Counted from the stretch's first letter, positions 39,314 through 63,943 are shown. The stretch: 64,000 nucleotides of DNA from an uncultured Algibacter sp. (GCA_947502405.1 CANMZT010000003.1:186001-250000); one strand, 5' to 3'. Notes: generated by a model from the sequence alone, not told the origin. Translations and numbers: made by a program.

Positions 39314-39387
39314 GGGCCTATAACTCAGTTGGTTAGAGTATCTGACTCATAATCAGAAAGTCCCTAGTTCGAGCCTAGGTGGGCCCA
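39314..39387 (+). tRNA. tRNA with CAT anticodon (elongator Met or Ile2)
   Basis: 74-nt cloverleaf; acceptor GGGCCTA/TGGGCCC (one G-T wobble), anticodon loop CTCATAA, T arm CCTAGTTCGAGCCTAGG. Confidence 0.92.
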
Positions 39388-39393
39388 CAACAC

Positions 39394-53305: not shown

Positions 53306-54985
53306 ATGAAAACCAAAACCTTATTTCTTTTTGAAACGCAAAACTTTATAAACCATGTAAAGCAAAATTATAATCCAGACGAGCCACTTGTTTTTTGGAT
53401 AGATTTATTTTGTGGTGCTGGCGGCACATCAACAGGTATTCACTTTACAGGTGAAAATAATTTTGTTGCAGCATGTGTAAACCACGATTTAAACGCTATT
53501 AAATCGCATGAAAAAAATCATCCTAATACTATTCATTTTGTAGAAGATATTAGAGATTTTAAAGTTGTAGAAAAATTAGCCTATTTAGTTAAAAAACTAC
53601 GTTTAATATTTCCTAATTGCACTATTAATCTTTGGGGATCGTTGGAATGTACAAACTTTTCAAAAGCTAAAGGCGGCCAACCACGAGATGCAGATAGCCG
53701 TACACTAGCCGAACACATGTTTATGTACTTAAAAGCATTAAAACCTAGTTATTTTTGGGTTGAAAATGTTCGCGAATTTATGAGTTGGGGCCCGCTTAAT
53801 GAAAACGGCAAACCTATTTCCAGAACAGAAGGCAAAGACTATATAAAATGGATTAAAAAAGTAAAATCTTTTGGATATAAATATGATGCAAAGTTGCTTA
53901 ATGCTGCAAATTTTGGAGCATACCAAAGTAGAGAGCGATTATTTATTCAATTTACAAAAAAAGGATATCCAATTTCATGGCCAGAGCAAACGCACACCAA
54001 AGATAAAGTTGAAAACTCGTTGTTTCCTATGGAAAAATGGAAACCCGTAAAAGATGTTTTAGATTTGAATGATGAAGGTGTTAGTATTTTTCAGCGTAAA
54101 AAAGAACTTTCAGACAACACACTAAAACGCATCTATGCAGGATTATTAAAGTTTGTAGCTAACGGTGAGCAAGTATTTACAAAACGGTATAATGGTGGCA
54201 AAGTAAATCCGCACCAAAAAGTAAATTCAATTAACAAACCATTAGGCACAATTTTATCAAATAATACGCATGCGCTTGTAAAATCAGTGTTCATAAAAAA
54301 ATACTTTTCTGGTAGACCAGAAGGAAAAGTAATTAGTGTAGATGGTCCAGCAGGAACAGTTACTACTTCTGGTGGTCAAGCTGTGGTTACATCATCCCAC
54401 TTATCAACCTACTATGGTAACTTTGGTTTACACTCTATAGAAAATCCTTCACCCACCATCACCACAAAAGATAGAGTTACCAAAATAGATGTTAATTTTT
54501 TAGACGAGCAATACGGTAAAGGATCTGCACGAACCATTGAAAAACCAATTGGCGCACTTACTACAATTCCAAAATTTAATTTAGTAAAAGCAAAACAATA
54601 CATCTATAACCCAGGATGGGGTGGCACACACGGTAATATAGAAAACCCGTGTTGTACCGTTGTGGCTAGACAAGACAAAGCACCATTGTATTTAGTATCT
54701 ACAGAGTTAGGACAAATTACAATACCAGTCTATAAAAGTGATAGCGAAACCATGATTAAAATAAAAGAATTTATGGTAACACATGGTATTGTAGATATTA
54801 AAATGCGAATGCTTAACATACCAGAGTTAAAGCAAATACAAGGCTTCCCTAAAAATTATAAGCTAGTAGGAAACAAAACCCAACAAAAAAAGTTTATTGG
54901 TAACGCTGTAGAAGTAAACCAAGCTAAGGCATTGGTAAAAAGTAACTACCAAGCTATACAAATGTATTTTAATAATGCAGCATAA
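53306..54985 (+). CDS. C5 cytosine DNA methyltransferase
   Basis: WIDLFCGAGGTSTGIHF (motif I), GSLECTNFSKAKGG (motif IV, Cys), FWVENVREF (motif VI), LKQIQGFPKNYKLVG..FIGNAVEV (IX/X). Confidence 0.93.
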   Translation: MKTKTLFLFETQNFINHVKQNYNPDEPLVFWIDLFCGAGGTSTGIHFTGENNFVAACVNHDLNAIKSHEKNHPNTIHFVEDIRDFKVVEKLAYLVKKLRLIFPNCTINLWGSLECTNFSKAKGGQPRDADSRTLAEHMFMYLKALKPSYFWVENVREFMSWGPLNENGKPISRTEGKDYIKWIKKVKSFGYKYDAKLLNAANFGAYQSRERLFIQFTKKGYPISWPEQTHTKDKVENSLFPMEKWKPVKDVLDLNDEGVSIFQRKKELSDNTLKRIYAGLLKFVANGEQVFTKRYNGGKVNPHQKVNSINKPLGTILSNNTHALVKSVFIKKYFSGRPEGKVISVDGPAGTVTTSGGQAVVTSSHLSTYYGNFGLHSIENPSPTITTKDRVTKIDVNFLDEQYGKGSARTIEKPIGALTTIPKFNLVKAKQYIYNPGWGGTHGNIENPCCTVVARQDKAPLYLVSTELGQITIPVYKSDSETMIKIKEFMVTHGIVDIKMRMLNIPELKQIQGFPKNYKLVGNKTQQKKFIGNAVEVNQAKALVKSNYQAIQMYFNNAA

Positions 54986-55012: not shown

Positions 55013-55900
55013 ATGAGCGGAAATATTAATAATAAAATAGCTTTTGATTATTTTGGAGGTAAATTCTCTTGGATTAAACATTTGTATCAATATTTTCCAA
55101 ATGATTTTATACATCTTGTAGATGTTTTTGGAGGAAGTTTTTCTGTAACGCTTAACTATGATAAAAAAGTTATTAAAACAGCTAACGAAATAAATAGCAA
55201 CATCACTAACTTTTTTGAAGTATTAAGAGACAGAGAAGATGAATTGTTAAACGCTCTTGAACTTACTCCTTGTAGCAGGGAAGAATATGATAGATGTTGG
55301 GAATATGACTTATCTCAAGATAAACTAGAAGCAGCTAGAAGATTATATGTAAGATTGAGACAATCCTTTTTTTCTTTAGGTTCAGCTCGTAAAAATAAAG
55401 GCTGGCACATGGCCAAGACACAAGTTAATTGTTCAGGAGGTGAAACCGTAAGTAAATGGAATAATGCTATTCCAAAATTACGAGATGTGGCAATTGAATT
55501 AAGAAAAAATATTCAAATAACTAATTACGACTTTTTAGAATGTATTGAAAGAATAGATTTTACTGGAGCATTTTTTTATTGTGATCCACCTTATCCTTAT
55601 GAAACTAGAGCGTCTAAAGATGATTATTTGTTTGAATTTACAACAAAACAGCACGAGCAGCTGGCAGAAAAATTACATTCAGTAAAAGGTAGAGCAATGA
55701 TAAGCAGTTACAATTCTGAAATGTATGATATATTATATTCTGATTGGACAAAAATAGAATTACCAAAGAAAAAAAACAATATTAGATCCGGAGAAGTGCA
55801 AGAGGTTATATGGTTTAACTATCCAATTGAAGAAACAAAACAATTTCATCTAAAAGTTGAAGATGAAAACTACGGCACACAATTAAAAATTGATTTATAA
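55013..55900 (+). CDS. D12-class adenine DNA methyltransferase (Dam-like)
   Basis: FDYFGGKFSWIKHLYQYFP, FFYCDPPYPYETRASKDDY. Confidence 0.9.
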   Translation: MSGNINNKIAFDYFGGKFSWIKHLYQYFPNDFIHLVDVFGGSFSVTLNYDKKVIKTANEINSNITNFFEVLRDREDELLNALELTPCSREEYDRCWEYDLSQDKLEAARRLYVRLRQSFFSLGSARKNKGWHMAKTQVNCSGGETVSKWNNAIPKLRDVAIELRKNIQITNYDFLECIERIDFTGAFFYCDPPYPYETRASKDDYLFEFTTKQHEQLAEKLHSVKGRAMISSYNSEMYDILYSDWTKIELPKKKNNIRSGEVQEVIWFNYPIEETKQFHLKVEDENYGTQLKIDL

Positions 55901-57412: not shown

Positions 57413-59074
57413 ATGACGTCAGAAGAAATTAACACAGCATTATACAGGCCCATTTTAAGTGGCGATAAGTATAATGGTTTATTTCCTTCAAGCGCATGTA
57501 AAACAGTAAAGCTTGCTAAAGGTAATACCAAGGTAGCTATTACTCAAATGGCTAAATGGGCCAAAAAGTATGTAAATCATACTAAAAAAATAGCACCCAC
57601 TTTTATAGCAAATACGCTAGAAGAAACTTTGAATAATATTCAATGGTTTTTGTATTGGCATATTAACTACAAAATTGATGGTACAGATCAAAACCTAAAA
57701 AGCCCTGCATGTTCATGGGAAACAAGATTTGATGGTACTGATTGTAAAAGCTACAGCATTTTTGCAAGCACTATACTTTTAAACTTAGGTATCAACCATT
57801 TTCTGCGGAGAATTAAACAAAACGATGGCAGTAACGCCTTTACACATGTTTACGTAGCAATACCTATAAATCAATCACAAAAAACACTTACTAAAAACGC
57901 AAAATTTGGTAAAGACTATCTAATAATTGATGGCACCATAGAGCATAATATAGAATTACCCTTCAGAGATAAAGATGATATTTATATGGAAACTAAATTA
58001 CCAATATACGGATTAGCAGCACCACACAGAGGTATGGGTTGTAGTTGTGGTTGTAACAATTATCAATCACCAGATATAGTGCCTATGGTAACACCAGATG
58101 TAATGCCTGTGGTGGCAATGGCTGGTTTAGGTTCTGATAGAGTAACTCAAATTCCTATTAATGGTATAACAAAAGGGTTTAACCTACCTACATTAGAAAA
58201 CACTACATATAATCAATTACCTATTGGTACTAACAGCGGTTTTGACCCATTAAATCCAGTAAATTCTCTGATTTCTTTAATACCTGGTGGGGATATTATA
58301 AATTCTGTAGTGCCAGTTGGCGAAATACTTGGAAACATTACTAAGTATGCTGGCGATATGTTTTCTACAAGCTTATCGTGTTATAAATCTACACATACAC
58401 CCTCGCAAACTGAAACGTCTATCAATAATGTGTTGATGCCTTTTATTACAAACGAGTTAAGTCTTGTAGATTCTAATAATCCAGAATTGGCTTTAGTACA
58501 ACTAGAAACCATTATGAAGTATGCTAAAGGCGGATATAGTGGCGTTGAAGGTGCTTTAACTGAAAGCAAATGGAAAAAATGCAGTAGAGAAAGCTTAAAA
58601 ATGTTTAGCAAATGGTGGAACAAAACCTTTAATGAAGTTAAAGCAAAAAGAGACAAGCTAGTTTCTCAAATGAAAGCCGCAGGTTATGTTTTAGATAGTA
58701 AAACGCAATCTTTTGATTCCAGAACATGGGACGTAGGCGATAAACCTAACACCTATGAAGGCGATATAGGATTAAATGTATATGGAGCCAAATATGATAA
58801 TACAGGTTTTGAAACATTTAACATGAAAACATACAGTATCAAGTACGCTCCTGAAAATACAAGTATTTCTTTGGATGGTAGCACTCCAGATATTGTTTCC
58901 AGTTACGTTGATACAAATGGCGAATTGGTTTTTTTAGATGCAAACAACCAAAAAGTAAATACTAAAAAACCAAAAACACAACAAGCTGGTTTTGGTTTAA
59001 TGGGCGGTATAGTTATAACGGCCATAATTGTAGGTGCTGTTGTTTTAAACAAGAATGATAAACCAAAAGAATAA
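57413..59074 (+). CDS. Transglutaminase-like domain protein with C-terminal TM (first late gene)
   Basis: 553 aa; DGTDCKSYSIFAS...AFTHVYVAI...YLIIDGT Cys-His-Asp order; C-terminal FGLMGGIVITAIIVGAVVL. Confidence 0.65.
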   Translation: MTSEEINTALYRPILSGDKYNGLFPSSACKTVKLAKGNTKVAITQMAKWAKKYVNHTKKIAPTFIANTLEETLNNIQWFLYWHINYKIDGTDQNLKSPACSWETRFDGTDCKSYSIFASTILLNLGINHFLRRIKQNDGSNAFTHVYVAIPINQSQKTLTKNAKFGKDYLIIDGTIEHNIELPFRDKDDIYMETKLPIYGLAAPHRGMGCSCGCNNYQSPDIVPMVTPDVMPVVAMAGLGSDRVTQIPINGITKGFNLPTLENTTYNQLPIGTNSGFDPLNPVNSLISLIPGGDIINSVVPVGEILGNITKYAGDMFSTSLSCYKSTHTPSQTETSINNVLMPFITNELSLVDSNNPELALVQLETIMKYAKGGYSGVEGALTESKWKKCSRESLKMFSKWWNKTFNEVKAKRDKLVSQMKAAGYVLDSKTQSFDSRTWDVGDKPNTYEGDIGLNVYGAKYDNTGFETFNMKTYSIKYAPENTSISLDGSTPDIVSSYVDTNGELVFLDANNQKVNTKKPKTQQAGFGLMGGIVITAIIVGAVVLNKNDKPKE

Positions 59075-59128
59075 AAGAACGTGCATTGAAGCATACTTTA
59101 TATAATTATTAATTAACAACAAAAAAAG

Positions 59129-59545
59129 ATGAAATTACAGAAAGTAACCTCTAAAAAAGCATTAGATGCTGGATTAGTAGCCCTTGAAGCAGGCGTAGGA
59201 TTCGCAGCTTCAAATGCAGCGGTTGGACCTCTTAATTCGTTAGTAAACAATAAAATGGCTTCAAAAGGGATTTTGGCTGTTGTAGGTTTAACATTAGCGA
59301 TTGCAGTTCCTAACAACCACGTAAAAGCCATTGGCGCAGGTATGGCAGCTAAACAAACTTTTGATTTAGTAAAAGATGCTGTTGCACCACATGTACCTAG
59401 TGATGGTATTATTGCTGATGCATTAGAAATTGAAGCAGCACCACAAGCTGCACCCGAAGGTATGGGACGTTTAAACCGTGCTATGGGTAATGCAGAGCCT
59501 TTTAGAATAGGAAATCCATTAGGAGTAAACTATCAATTAGGTTAA
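59129..59545 (+). CDS. Hypothetical small hydrophobic late protein
   Basis: 138 aa; GILAVVGLTLAIAVPNNHVKAIGAGMAA. Confidence 0.6.
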   Translation: MKLQKVTSKKALDAGLVALEAGVGFAASNAAVGPLNSLVNNKMASKGILAVVGLTLAIAVPNNHVKAIGAGMAAKQTFDLVKDAVAPHVPSDGIIADALEIEAAPQAAPEGMGRLNRAMGNAEPFRIGNPLGVNYQLG

Positions 59546-59607
59546 ACAAAAAGGATCAAACACACACACAAACACACACAAATAAAAACAAATTAAAAAA
59601 AGTAATC

Positions 59608-60243
59608 ATGTTAGAAATACAGAATAAATTAAGAGCAATTGCTTGGATGCGTGACACAATGAAGCCAAAATTATTTACAGTATTAAGCTTTTTAGTACTA
59701 GTAAGTAGTCAATTGTCTGCTAACACTCAATTGTTAGCAGCGCAAGGTAAAATTAACCCTAGAGATAGAAGTATAACAGTTCGCAATAAAGTTGTAGCTG
59801 GAGGAACTATCAATTTATTAGATGGCTATAATGCCATGATTAAAGGTAAGAATGATTTTAACGGTAATAAGTTATCAAACAACTTAAATTTTGTTTTAGA
59901 TTCACTTCAACTGAATTATGGAACAGGAGTAACCGCAACGGTTGGTGATAAATATGATTTAGTAGATTTCACATCTTCATTGCCACCTGCTTTAAAATCA
60001 GCTATTTTAATTATTGAGCAAGACGATAAGGTGATTAGAAAACTTTCAATTGCAGCAATTAATGAAGCTAAAAGTACTGATAACCGTTTTTATGAAACTC
60101 AACTAGCTTTATTGAAAAGTGACACAATAACAGGTCTTAAAATCGAATTTGGAGAGAATGCTGCATTCACTTATACAGGTGGTGATGACGCTTCTTATGT
60201 GGAGTTGATTTTACAAGGTTTTGAAACCGCAACTACATACTAG
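59608..60243 (+). CDS. Candidate major virion protein
   Basis: 211 aa; beta-rich composition after an N-terminal hydrophobic stretch; own intrinsic terminator; family inferred from position only. Confidence 0.4.
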   Translation: MLEIQNKLRAIAWMRDTMKPKLFTVLSFLVLVSSQLSANTQLLAAQGKINPRDRSITVRNKVVAGGTINLLDGYNAMIKGKNDFNGNKLSNNLNFVLDSLQLNYGTGVTATVGDKYDLVDFTSSLPPALKSAILIIEQDDKVIRKLSIAAINEAKSTDNRFYETQLALLKSDTITGLKIEFGENAAFTYTGGDDASYVELILQGFETATTY

Positions 60244-60268
60244 ATAAAACACAAAATTATAATAACAA

Positions 60269-60306
60269 AAGCCTTTATGCATGTATTGTGCTTAAAGGCT
60301 TTTTTT
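60269..60306 (+). terminator. Intrinsic terminator
   Basis: AAAAGCCTTTA...TAAAGGCTTTTTTT. Confidence 0.85.
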
Positions 60307-60320
60307 AAATCCAAAAAATC

Positions 60321-60704
60321 ATGGAAAATAGTAATGTTAAGCATCTTTACGATAAAGTAAATATTGTCATCCCTGTTGGTTCGCCTAGTTTTAGTAAATC
60401 AATTTCTATTAAAAAAGGAAAATGTGTTGGAGTTAAACTTATTCATATTTCTAGCGCACAAGCCGTTAATCAAAACTTAAATCTTGGGGTATCAGATGGT
60501 AATAATCCATTAGTTAACGCTACAGATTTTAGAGATTTTATTCAGCTTGGTGGCGGTTATAAAGATGGTTTTAAACCTTGTAATTTCGATTCTAGCTTAG
60601 AAGTATCTGTTGATGCCATTGCTGAAAGTAATATTGCAGGTGCAGATTTTAAGGCTCAACTCATTTTTATGATTGAGGAAGAGTGTAACGCAATTAATAA
60701 CTAG
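60321..60704 (+). CDS. Candidate minor virion protein (beta-rich)
   Basis: 127 aa ORF in late block; beta-rich pattern. Confidence 0.5.
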   Translation: MENSNVKHLYDKVNIVIPVGSPSFSKSISIKKGKCVGVKLIHISSAQAVNQNLNLGVSDGNNPLVNATDFRDFIQLGGGYKDGFKPCNFDSSLEVSVDAIAESNIAGADFKAQLIFMIEEECNAINN

Positions 60705-60705
60705 C

Positions 60706-61110
60706 ATGAATACTCAAACAGCTTTATCTGGTGTTTTGCCAGAAGGTAATCACCGAAGTTTTTTATATATCATTTTATTGCTTAGACGTTTGGTTTTTGG
60801 CGTTGAATACGTAACCAGAGTAAAACGTTTTAGCCAGCAACAAAATTTTGATTTAAAAGACTTAGGCGGTAAGCTAGGTGTAAGAGGTTTTACGCTTAGA
60901 AATATTGGCGGCCATATTATTTATGTATCAACAAGTAGTTTAGATGAAAAAGAGCCAGTATATCCAGGAGAGCATTTTGCAATATCTGGAGAAGGCAGAT
61001 GTGTAGATCAAAGCATTAAAATAATTTTTGATGATAATGCTTACGCAGAAAACAACACACCTTTTTCTGGTAAAAATGCTATTGTACGGTACAAAGTAGA
61101 CGTATGTTAA
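60706..61110 (+). CDS. Hypothetical late protein
   Basis: MNTQTALSGVLPEGNHRSFLYIILLL...; start moved to 60706 to avoid overlap with the upstream gene. Confidence 0.55.
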   Translation: MNTQTALSGVLPEGNHRSFLYIILLLRRLVFGVEYVTRVKRFSQQQNFDLKDLGGKLGVRGFTLRNIGGHIIYVSTSSLDEKEPVYPGEHFAISGEGRCVDQSIKIIFDDNAYAENNTPFSGKNAIVRYKVDVC

Positions 61111-61141
61111 ATCCATAAAAAAACAACAACCCTTCAAACTT

Positions 61142-62071
61142 ATGGAAATTAAAACAAAAGCAGATTTAATTCAGTATCTCGAAGCTCATTTAAGTAAAAA
61201 TACTGGGCGTGTTTCTGTTATTCAAGATACTAATAAGCGCAAAAAAGAAAACGCTAGATATCAAAAATTTGTCTGGAGTAAAGATGATATTTTAAAAGAG
61301 AGTGGCAGCATTGAAACCTTTATAGACACGCTTCCGCAATTTGGATTCACAAGTGGTGCAATACTTCAAATTAAAAGGATGGAAGGTGTTACTGCAAAAA
61401 TTAAAGGCGAAACTACTTTAACATTTCCTGATGCGCCAAAGCCTGAAACATCGGCACCACAATCAGCACAAAAACCCTCTGTAATGGAACAAATCGAAAA
61501 AACTCAAACTTCAACCGCAAGTCAGTCATCACCACCTGCCCAGTATCAAGGTATGGGAAACCCAGGACTAGGATTTGTAGCAGTACAACAACACGAAGTG
61601 GTTAGCATGAAGGTGAAAGCTGAACGCTATGATGAGTTAGTTGATAAGGTTTCAACTTTAAAAGAAGATTTAGCCGATTGTAAAGCCGATTTAAGAACTG
61701 AAAAAATTGCACGTTTTGATGCCGAAAGAAAGTTAGAAACTTTAGAGGATAAAAAGGAATTTGAAAAAACAAGGGCATTAGCCGAAAAAGAAAATGCTTT
61801 TGATAAACTAGCAAAAAATGAAGCCGTGGTTAACGGTTTAGGAACGCTTTTAGCCAGCCTTCCTGAAATGATAAAAAAACCACAAGCGGTTGGTATGGGT
61901 AATCCTATAGCTAATTTATCTGAAGCTAAACAGCAATTTGCAGCACAGTTGCAAAATATTCCAGATGAATTAATCCCTATTTTATTTCAAACATCACAAG
62001 GCTTAATATCAAATGATGAGTTTCAGCAATATGTTATTACAGGATTAAATCAAATTCAATCCAATTCATAA
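61142..62071 (+). CDS. Coiled-coil late protein with GMGNP motifs
   Basis: 309 aa; YQGMGNPGLGF, heptad-rich middle, AVGMGNPIANLSE. Confidence 0.6.
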   Translation: MEIKTKADLIQYLEAHLSKNTGRVSVIQDTNKRKKENARYQKFVWSKDDILKESGSIETFIDTLPQFGFTSGAILQIKRMEGVTAKIKGETTLTFPDAPKPETSAPQSAQKPSVMEQIEKTQTSTASQSSPPAQYQGMGNPGLGFVAVQQHEVVSMKVKAERYDELVDKVSTLKEDLADCKADLRTEKIARFDAERKLETLEDKKEFEKTRALAEKENAFDKLAKNEAVVNGLGTLLASLPEMIKKPQAVGMGNPIANLSEAKQQFAAQLQNIPDELIPILFQTSQGLISNDEFQQYVITGLNQIQSNS

Positions 62072-62074
62072 AAA

Positions 62075-62269
62075 ATGGCAACAATATTACAAGTTACAGG
62101 TGCTAACGCAGCCGACGAAAAAAAGAGACACGAAGCCTTTTCTGATTTAAACGAATTAGATACGGTGGTTTTAACTCGCATTGCAGAGTTAAGTAAAAGC
62201 CCAAAGGCATTAAGTTATTTTAAAACAACAATAATGTTCGCCGCAGTTAAAAAGTTTTTAGGAGTGTAA
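62075..62269 (+). CDS. Small late protein
   Basis: 64-aa ORF closely following 62071. Confidence 0.5.
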   Translation: MATILQVTGANAADEKKRHEAFSDLNELDTVVLTRIAELSKSPKALSYFKTTIMFAAVKKFLGV

Positions 62270-62284
62270 ATAAACAGCAATACT

Positions 62285-62899
62285 ATGTCAAAAACACCAA
62301 CACATAAACTTGGAAATCCAGTAGCTATAGCAAATGTTGCTAGTGCTGCAAGTAAGGCGGCTCCTAAAGTTAAAAAAGCTACTAAAAAAGTTAATGCGGA
62401 CACCAAAGGTGCATTAAGCTGGGTTATTGTTGCTGGTGTAGCAATAACAGGGATTGTTGTATTAAAAGCTTTAAATAATGCTTCAAAAGTAACTAACATA
62501 ATTGGGTCTGGTGCCGAAGTAGCATCTGCTACTCTTGATGAAATTACTAAAGCAATAAAAGATCCAAATCTAAATGCTAGCGATTCGACTGTAGGAAACG
62601 CAGGAGAAATACCTTTAACAATTACTGAAGCTGAAGCGCAAAACAGAGCCAACTTATTACTTGAAGCTATGAATTGGCCCGGTACTAACTTTCAAAGAAT
62701 TAAACAAGCATTAACAAATATTACTCTTGCTGATTATGTTTTAATAGCTGAAAAGTTTGGCACACCAAGATACAATGGTGTAACAGGTACTGAAGCGTAT
62801 TGGCCTATGCCAAAAAGAAACCTTAGTTATTGGTTAGTGGCAGAACTTGATGATAATGAAGTTAAAGAAATAACAACGCTTTTACCAGGAATATTTTAA
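62285..62899 (+). CDS. TM-anchored late protein with annexin-repeat-like segment
   Basis: TM LSWVIVAGVAITGIVVLKAL; LLLEAMNWPGTNFQRIKQALTNITLADYVLIAEKFGTPRY. Confidence 0.5.
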   Translation: MSKTPTHKLGNPVAIANVASAASKAAPKVKKATKKVNADTKGALSWVIVAGVAITGIVVLKALNNASKVTNIIGSGAEVASATLDEITKAIKDPNLNASDSTVGNAGEIPLTITEAEAQNRANLLLEAMNWPGTNFQRIKQALTNITLADYVLIAEKFGTPRYNGVTGTEAYWPMPKRNLSYWLVAELDDNEVKEITTLLPGIF

Positions 62900-62909
62900 A
62901 CCAATAATT

Positions 62910-63380
62910 ATGGGACCATATATACAACCACATTTAGCTTGTCCGTGTGATAGAAGCGAAATGTATAATCCTTTTAAGATTATGACAAAGCAAACACAAA
63001 TAGTTGATTTTAGTACAGCATTGCCCGTTGCAAACGTAAATGTTTACTTAAAAGACAACCCAAGTATAGGTACAATAACCAATGAAAACGGAGTTTTTAC
63101 TTTTGAAGCTAAACCAGATGATATTATAGTATTGTCTCATGTAGCTTATGGCAAATATCCTATAAAATTTAAAGAGGTTCAACCCGTAGAGTACATCGAA
63201 GAAAAATCTAATACGCTTGATGAAGTTGTGGTATTAGCTAAGAAAAAGAAAAGCTGGTTAGTAGCTGCTGGACTTGCGGTTTTAGGTTTATTTATTATCA
63301 CTTCAAATAGTGAAGAAGAAGAAAAGCCATCACCAAAGAAGCCAACACCAAAAAAGAATACTGTAAAAGCTAAAGTGTAA
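62910..63380 (+). CDS. CarboxypepD_reg-like domain protein with TM anchor
   Basis: VDFSTALPVANVNVYLKDNPSIGTITNENGVFTFEAKPDDIIVLSHVAYG; TM SWLVAAGLAVLGLFIIT. Confidence 0.7.
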   Translation: MGPYIQPHLACPCDRSEMYNPFKIMTKQTQIVDFSTALPVANVNVYLKDNPSIGTITNENGVFTFEAKPDDIIVLSHVAYGKYPIKFKEVQPVEYIEEKSNTLDEVVVLAKKKKSWLVAAGLAVLGLFIITSNSEEEEKPSPKKPTPKKNTVKAKV

Positions 63381-63943
63381 TGTCAAAATTTGATTTATAT
63401 GCGCCATTATTAGTTGCCGTAGAAGGTGGTTATCAAAAACTACCTAATGATTCTGGTAACTATAATTCCAGAAACCAGTTAGTAGGTACAAATCACGGTA
63501 TTAGCGCACCTGTTTATGAAAAATGGATTGGTAGAGTACCAACAGAACAGGATATGCGAAGCATAACTAAAACCGTTGCTTTTGAGATTTACAAAGCATG
63601 GTATTGGAATAAAATAGGAGCATCACAAATTAAAAATCAAAGTATAGCAAACATAATTGTAGATCATGCTGTTAATGCAGGAGTTGGTGCTTCAAGTAAG
63701 CTAGTACAAAAAAGCTTAAATAAAGATTTTGGTTTTAATCTAGCCGTAGATGGTATGATAGGTGAAAAAACCCGTAAAGCAATTAATAGTGTTGATGCAG
63801 AAAAACTACATGAAAGCATTAAAACAGCAAGACACCATTTTTACTTAAATATTGGTGGTGCTTTTTTAAATGTGTGGCTAAATAGGTTAAGCAATTTTGT
63901 TTTTACCGAAAAAAAAAAGCAGCAACGGCATTGGTGGGCATAG
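63380..63943 (+). CDS. GH108-type lysozyme / N-acetylmuramidase
   Basis: LLVAVEGGYQKLPNDSGNYNSRNQLVGTNHGIS; C-terminal peptidoglycan-binding region LAVDGMIGEKTRKAIN. Confidence 0.88.
   Translation: MSKFDLYAPLLVAVEGGYQKLPNDSGNYNSRNQLVGTNHGISAPVYEKWIGRVPTEQDMRSITKTVAFEIYKAWYWNKIGASQIKNQSIANIIVDHAVNAGVGASSKLVQKSLNKDFGFNLAVDGMIGEKTRKAINSVDAEKLHESIKTARHHFYLNIGGAFLNVWLNRLSNFVFTEKKKQQRHWWA

Follow-up and report, generated by a model that had tools for sequence, protein, structure and literature searches.

What kind of particle is encoded by a compact run of ten open reading frames (ORFs) near the end of a 64,000-nucleotide stretch of DNA from an uncultured Algibacter sp. (GCA_947502405.1, CANMZT010000003.1:186001-250000; hereafter the window)? 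The block, at positions 57413-63943, had been interpreted from its sequence as a late region for a membrane-containing virion, and all ten ORFs of this sequence-only reading, here named genes A to J (Table 1), are present. We consider it probable, at roughly 0.85, that the block forms the virion module of a temperate, integrated double-stranded DNA (dsDNA) phage related to SSIP-1, which would be tailless and would probably have an inner membrane. SSIP-1 is an unclassified 43.8-kilobase (kb) isolate from a salt pond, a hypersaline site. According to its published descriptions, it lacks a tail and has an internal membrane, T=49 and two types of capsid protein (PMC6356626, PMC6260650), and its gp40 is a predicted packaging ATPase (PMC4124505). 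The SSIP-1 record annotates gp34, gp40, gp44, gp45, gp46, and gp48 as structural.

Similarity of the gene block to phage SSIP-1

Family profiles were scored against 29 SSIP-1 proteins together with reversed and shuffled decoys, which gave 51 bits for A with gp34, 42 for L (an ATPase protein encoded beyond the block) with gp40, 24 for F with gp33, 15.7 for C with gp46, 14.9 for B with gp44, and 9.7 for E with gp48. For the A, B, and L profiles, gp34, gp44, and gp40 respectively ranked top among all proteins and decoys, and the best decoy for the C profile reached 7.6 bits, compared to the value for gp46. The similarity of A to gp34 (expect value, E, 6.9e-15) was also seen with hhalign (probability 96.5). 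In a 9 x 5 hhalign matrix, the SSIP-1 profiles were enlarged with proteins of the clear SSIP-1-like proviruses carried by Bacteroidota outside Flavobacteriaceae. In this matrix C matched gp45/46 with a probability of 90% (E 1.7e-6) and B matched gp44 with 33% (E 4.6e-4), and no other cell exceeded 4.3%, the value for E against gp48. In the reverse search, the gp45/46 profile led to C in 31 of 54 matches and the gp44 profile to B in 32 of 61. Since C is a remote homolog of the virion proteins gp45 and gp46 and the SSIP-1 virion has an internal membrane, the membrane-virion interpretation is supported and is the best reading of the block. Collectively, the comparisons support the view that the element is a provirus with an SSIP-1-type virion module.

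In gene A, a Cys111, His145, and Asp173 triad is invariant in all 12 aligned members, gp34 among them, and a transglutaminase-like Pfam match (DUF553) was weak and below cut-off. The conservation of the triad makes a catalytic role of A during entry or maturation plausible. None of genes A-H received a name above cut-off from Pfam, PHROG, or NCBIfam. Sequence searches of the PDB returned nothing useful with the profiles of A, C, and SSIP-1 gp45/46, and chance-level matches only with that of D.

The order A-B-C-D-E-F-G-H-I is fixed, with A, B, C, D, and F each found by iterated profiles in at least 80 of 93 loci, a few genomes being present twice among them; gene I is followed by the peptidoglycan hydrolase J, then by K and L, where the contig extends far enough. 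A scan with the gene A alignment, using one genome per species, returned 85 loci, of which 80 were kept, and provided 70 distinct C sequences. Carrier hosts include Flavobacterium, Tenacibaculum, Capnocytophaga, Kordia, Aquimarina, Maribacter, Bizionia, and Mesonia. Among 400 sampled Flavobacteriaceae genomes, 23 had a gene A match (16 at E <= 1e-40, including the genome of the window), suggesting that prophage finders that rely on tails may miss a prophage class that is common. With the 211-residue C product as the query, 10 further genomes of the 400 were found, in 10 other genera. Owing to sequence divergence, tblastn of A and C from the window against INPHARED gave zero matches. When the A protein of Persicobacter was used as the query against 50,697 phage records, the sole match was SSIP-1 gp34 (E 1e-7), and apart from SSIP-1 no virus of this kind came up among these records. 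Scans of IMG/VR returned two relatives of A, one in a 37-kb uncultivated virus genome assigned to Mesonia and one weak, in addition to SSIP-1 itself; the C alignment is too divergent for this pattern scan. The open literature that was searched yielded no paper tying Flavobacteriaceae prophages to SSIP-1, to which scope the word undescribed is limited, and the module appears to be a newly met variant of a known, nearly orphan kind of phage.

Candidate capsid proteins and membrane anchors

The product of gene C had been proposed as a major capsid protein, and it is the best capsid-protein candidate on the basis of its predicted single jelly roll and its remote homology to gp45/gp46. The AlphaFold2 model, built from 71 sequences, has a predicted local distance difference test score (pLDDT) of 90.9 and a predicted template modelling score (pTM) of 0.85, with N-terminal helices at residues 2-31 followed by an eight-stranded barrel pattern. 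Among solved structures, Foldseek ranked the Sulfolobus polyhedral virus 1 capsid protein (6oj0_A, E 7e-4, probability 1.00) first, and the next ones include plant satellite and picornavirus jelly-roll capsids among mixed, weaker matches. In the viral structure library BFVD, the model matched I1ZBH9 (211 residues) and I1ZBI0 (256 residues), which are taken as SSIP-1 gp46 and gp47, an identification made by equal length and order and not by accession. The strong terminator noted earlier behind gene C was confirmed; no shuffled sequence was equally stable, and a separate pattern scan did not list it.

Neither of the two predicted structures, C and D, has a tail or conjugation fold. The models contain one barrel of about eight strands each, which bears on the suggestion that the block belongs to a membrane phage with a double-jelly-roll capsid, from the PM2, FLiP, or PRD1 groups. 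Such a phage would also account for membrane proteins, a lysozyme, and the absence of a tail, and FLiP and its relatives infect Flavobacterium (PMC7654751). We nevertheless regard it as extremely unlikely, because the 211-residue C and the 127-residue D are predicted to be single jelly rolls, PM2, FLiP, and PRD1 capsids are absent from the matches listed, and the ATPase of the element matches RecA/RadA rather than FtsK/HerA. The sequence-only proposal of these three groups as relatives is therefore abandoned.

Transmembrane segments were called by a Kyte-Doolittle scan with a 19-residue window and a mean of at least 1.6. Hydrophobic segments had been noted in six products; four were recovered (57413, residues 527-545, C-terminal; 59129, 43-61; 62285, 42-60; 62910, 116-134), whereas those of 59608 and 60706 lie below the threshold. 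The stretch in the 60706 product may reflect start-codon choice, as one homolog set beside it (L020) has a later start and no such stretch. The distinctive feature of the block is the conserved placement of anchors in five families, not the number of transmembrane segments. Across the related loci, which are not independent samples, a hydrophobic anchor is found within the C-terminal 60 residues of most A (76%) and I (91%) proteins, against a background of 27%, and within the N-terminal 60 residues of most B (94%), H (91%), and K (97%) proteins, against a background of 36%. The homology, the predicted jelly-roll fold, and the conserved anchors together suggest a tailless icosahedral virion with an internal membrane.

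Several observations weigh against this reading. The similarity of C to SSIP-1 is remote, the reverse profile scores being individually weak (best E 0.03), and its Foldseek template modelling (TM) scores are modest (0.46/0.53). The links of D to gp47 and E to gp48 rest mainly on position. E scores against gp48 at E 0.05, the N-terminal half of gp47 aligns along D at a borderline level (E 0.011), and both lack reverse-search support; for D, weak in both profile-profile and reverse searches, homology to gp47 is not established. Structure matches of D are generic beta sandwiches and jelly rolls. Transmembrane segments in four of ten products equal the background of 36% of ORFs, so that richness by count was dropped as evidence; the earlier description of the block as rich in membrane proteins thus fails by count and stands as conserved placement across loci.

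Two further points of this kind come from proteins of 1082 and 786 residues encoded beyond the window, which match PHROG tail-fibre families and, through an Ig-like domain, PHROG tail families, respectively; both could be attachment proteins. They bear on the possibility that the element is a tailed phage, or its remnant, with head and tail genes too divergent to recognise, and GH108 endolysins also occur in tailed phages. The matches of the 786-residue protein to major tail proteins were rejected, as they are confined to residues 579-763, an Ig/fn3 stretch. In Pfam and PHROG scans that covered all but a few short ORFs of the element, no terminase, portal, HK97-fold capsid, tape measure, tail-tube, or conjugation gene was found. 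Given also the jelly roll predicted for C, a tailed phage is very improbable, and the tailless, SSIP-1-related phage is preferred.

The integrated element and its other genes

The block belongs to a 36.6-kb prophage inserted in tRNA-Met, the right end of which lies ~12 kb past the end of the window. A congeneric genome that lacks the element (G044, L182) has the empty site; the two flanks meet there and share 46 bp inside the tRNA-Met gene, and the boundaries and size of the prophage are therefore firm.

Table 1. Features of the prophage and its probable virion module; positions beyond the window are given as window equivalents (residues, aa)
Feature	Position	Strand	Basis or remark
tRNA-Met(CAT), integration target	39314..39388	+	ARAGORN
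attL, 3' part of tRNA-Met	20-bp core 39346-39365		exact 20-bp repeat
Putative tyrosine integrase, 412 aa	39518..40756	+	PHROG integrase E 1.3e-4 over aa 256-379; adjoins attL
C5-cytosine DNA methyltransferase, accessory	53306..54985	+	Pfam PF00145 E 6.8e-35
D12 N6-adenine DNA methyltransferase, accessory	55013..55900	+	Pfam PF02086 E 4e-18
A, 553 aa, transglutaminase-like domain, C-terminal membrane anchor, gp34 homolog	57413..59074	+	alignments, profile scores, transmembrane scan
B, 138 aa, Gly/Ala-rich hydrophobic membrane protein, gp44 homolog	59129..59545	+	gp44 14.9 bits, E 1.2e-3; hhalign; reverse search
C, 211 aa, putative single-jelly-roll major capsid protein, gp45/gp46 homolog	59608..60243	+	AlphaFold2, PDB match, hhalign
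Intrinsic terminator after C, AAAAGCCTTTA...TAAAGGCTTTTTTT	~60268..60305	+	-18.0 kcal/mol, z -4.7, then T7
D, 127 aa, eight-stranded jelly-roll-like, putative second capsid protein, gp47 position	60321..60704	+	AlphaFold2 pLDDT 88.2
E, small protein, gp48 position	60673..61110	+	38 loci; family length 84-145 aa; upstream start uncertain
F, 309 aa, gp33 homolog	61142..62071	+	81 loci; gp33 23.7 bits, E 1.9e-6, low complexity possibly aiding score
G, 64 aa, conserved	62075..62269	+	56 loci
H, 204 aa, N-terminal membrane anchor, conserved C-terminal domain	62285..62899	+	69 loci; 91% of the family anchored
I, 156 aa, CarboxypepD_reg-like beta domain, C-terminal membrane anchor	62910..63380	+	Pfam PF13715 E 9.8e-9; 91% of the family anchored
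J, 187 aa, GH108 peptidoglycan hydrolase	63380..63943	+	Pfam PF05838 E 4.5e-20; PHROG endolysin 1.5e-30; SSIP-1 gp31 E about 1e-7
1082-aa protein	64332-67580 (L008:1332-4580)		signal-like N-terminus, long internal repeats (KYESNPDTNVFTDAEKTKLAAQSG...), tail-fibre family matches
786-aa protein	67582-69942 (L008:4582-6942)		pectate-lyase-like, Big_2, fn3 domains; signal-like N-terminus
L, ATPase fused behind zincin-type polyvalent protein	72091-75909 (L008:9091-12909)		
attR	75981, outside window		exact recurrence of 20-bp tRNA piece

Alternatively, the capsid module could have been taken over by a mobile element that is domesticated or non-viral, such as a gene-transfer particle or a vesicle system, as scans recognised no replication initiator in the element and several relatives are on plasmids. 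This appears quite improbable in view of the intact att sites and ORFs, the empty site, the attachment-like proteins, the accessory DNA methyltransferases, and the likeness to the infectious phage SSIP-1. The two methyltransferases probably serve anti-restriction. The 1082-residue protein is likely to function in host attachment, and the 786-residue protein may be a depolymerase or an attachment protein. The ATPase of L is RecA/RadA-like (RadA E 3.5e-13; phrog_6891 E 1.5e-25). Its fusion is clearest in a related locus (L039:17788-20172), where ArdC-N and MPTase-PolyVal domains are found, and the ArdC-N domain suggests an anti-restriction protein carried in the virion. The lysozyme of the sequence-only reading proved to be the GH108 enzyme J. 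Lytic-transglycosylase-like genes matching SSIP-1 gp54 occur in three related loci (L024:11826-12308, L073:16635-17117, and L079:16380-16862); in L024 this gene, with a hydrophobic C-terminus, replaces the GH108 gene.

On the SSIP-1-related reading, the integrase would cut the element out of tRNA-Met upon induction, and the jelly-roll protein C, with D, would enclose a membrane vesicle in an icosahedral shell, the vesicle carrying the anchored proteins A, B, H, I, and K. DNA entry or packaging would be driven or assisted by L through its RecA/RadA-like ATPase, the 1082- and 786-residue proteins would bind hosts, and the GH108 enzyme would open peptidoglycan at entry or lysis.

Comparison with known viruses and plasmids

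Sulfolobus polyhedral virus 1 (Portogloboviridae), which provides the best solved match to C, has an archaeal host and no detectable sequence link to the element; it is without a packaging ATPase (PMC8812541), for which the element has a candidate. Viruses of Helvetiavirae in the realm Singelaviria (Sphaerolipoviridae, Simuloviridae, and Matsushitaviridae, e.g. P23-77) are tailless and contain a membrane and single-jelly-roll capsid proteins, as predicted for the element. Their pair of single-jelly-roll major capsid proteins may have a parallel in C and D, each modelled as a single jelly roll, D being a putative capsid protein. One account groups SSIP-1 with these viruses by architecture and models their packaging ATPases on FtsK/HerA-type folds (PMC5332951). 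No FtsK/HerA-type packaging ATPase was found in the element, its sole ATPase found being RecA/RadA-like, and gp40 of SSIP-1 is of the AAA_25/KaiC type; no helvetiaviral capsid is among the matches listed for C. On ATPase type, the element falls outside Helvetiavirae/Singelaviria. FLiP and other Finnlakeviridae are likewise membrane-containing phages of Flavobacterium, but have a 9-kb single-stranded DNA genome and a double jelly-roll, and no similarity to the element was seen. A transposable tailed prophage of F. columnare, fF4, is of a different type with a contractile tail (PMC7761591), and the 4.6-kb Charybdis elements are also different (PMC12324425).

Two plasmids of Persicobacter sp. JZB09 (CP012856, L113, and CP012854, L114) carry K-A-C-D-E-F-H-L in the same order, CP012856 also with J, but are circular replicons of 47.6 and 48.8 kb and likely phage-plasmids. 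Together with a third Persicobacter plasmid of 53.2 kb (NZ_AP025302, L115), in which H and the ATPase were seen along with a match to A at the plasmid start, they resemble phage-plasmids of the SSIP-1-like group. Proviruses from another family of the phylum (f24; L166-L177) have the SSIP-1 order gp43-44-45-47-48-54 and are close relatives of SSIP-1. Until now, SSIP-1 was a solitary, unclassified membrane phage. The same module now occurs in proviruses of culturable Flavobacteriaceae and in Persicobacter plasmids, and a virus type barely present in current phage databases thereby gains many candidate laboratory systems.

The closest comparison is with SSIP-1 itself. The element has homologs of gp34, gp40, gp44, gp45/46, gp33, and the gp31 endolysin, the order gp44-gp45/46-gp47-gp48 corresponds to B-C-D-E, and both have an integrase. 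The element differs in its extra conserved genes H, I, and K, in its integration in tRNA-Met, in its host family, and in its ATPase, which is fused behind a zincin-type polyvalent protein and is free-standing in SSIP-1. It has one C-type gene, whereas SSIP-1 has the two paralogs gp45 and gp46; in related proviruses outside Flavobacteriaceae, a single ORF each matches both. D is half the length of gp47 (L112:36043-36813), which is an internal tandem duplication (hhalign E 4.5e-5) that the SSIP-1 literature consulted does not mention. A possible, rather tentative scenario is that the proviruses form a major separate lineage of Bacteroidota jelly-roll dsDNA phages in a simpler capsid state, with one C-type gene, a single-domain D, and RecA/RadA-type packaging rather than an FtsK/HerA motor. 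The SSIP-1 lineage could have arisen from it through duplication of C into gp45/gp46 and doubling of D into gp47. This natural series, from one capsid gene to two paralogs and from a single to a doubled domain, bears on the origin of two-capsid-protein and double-jelly-roll shells.

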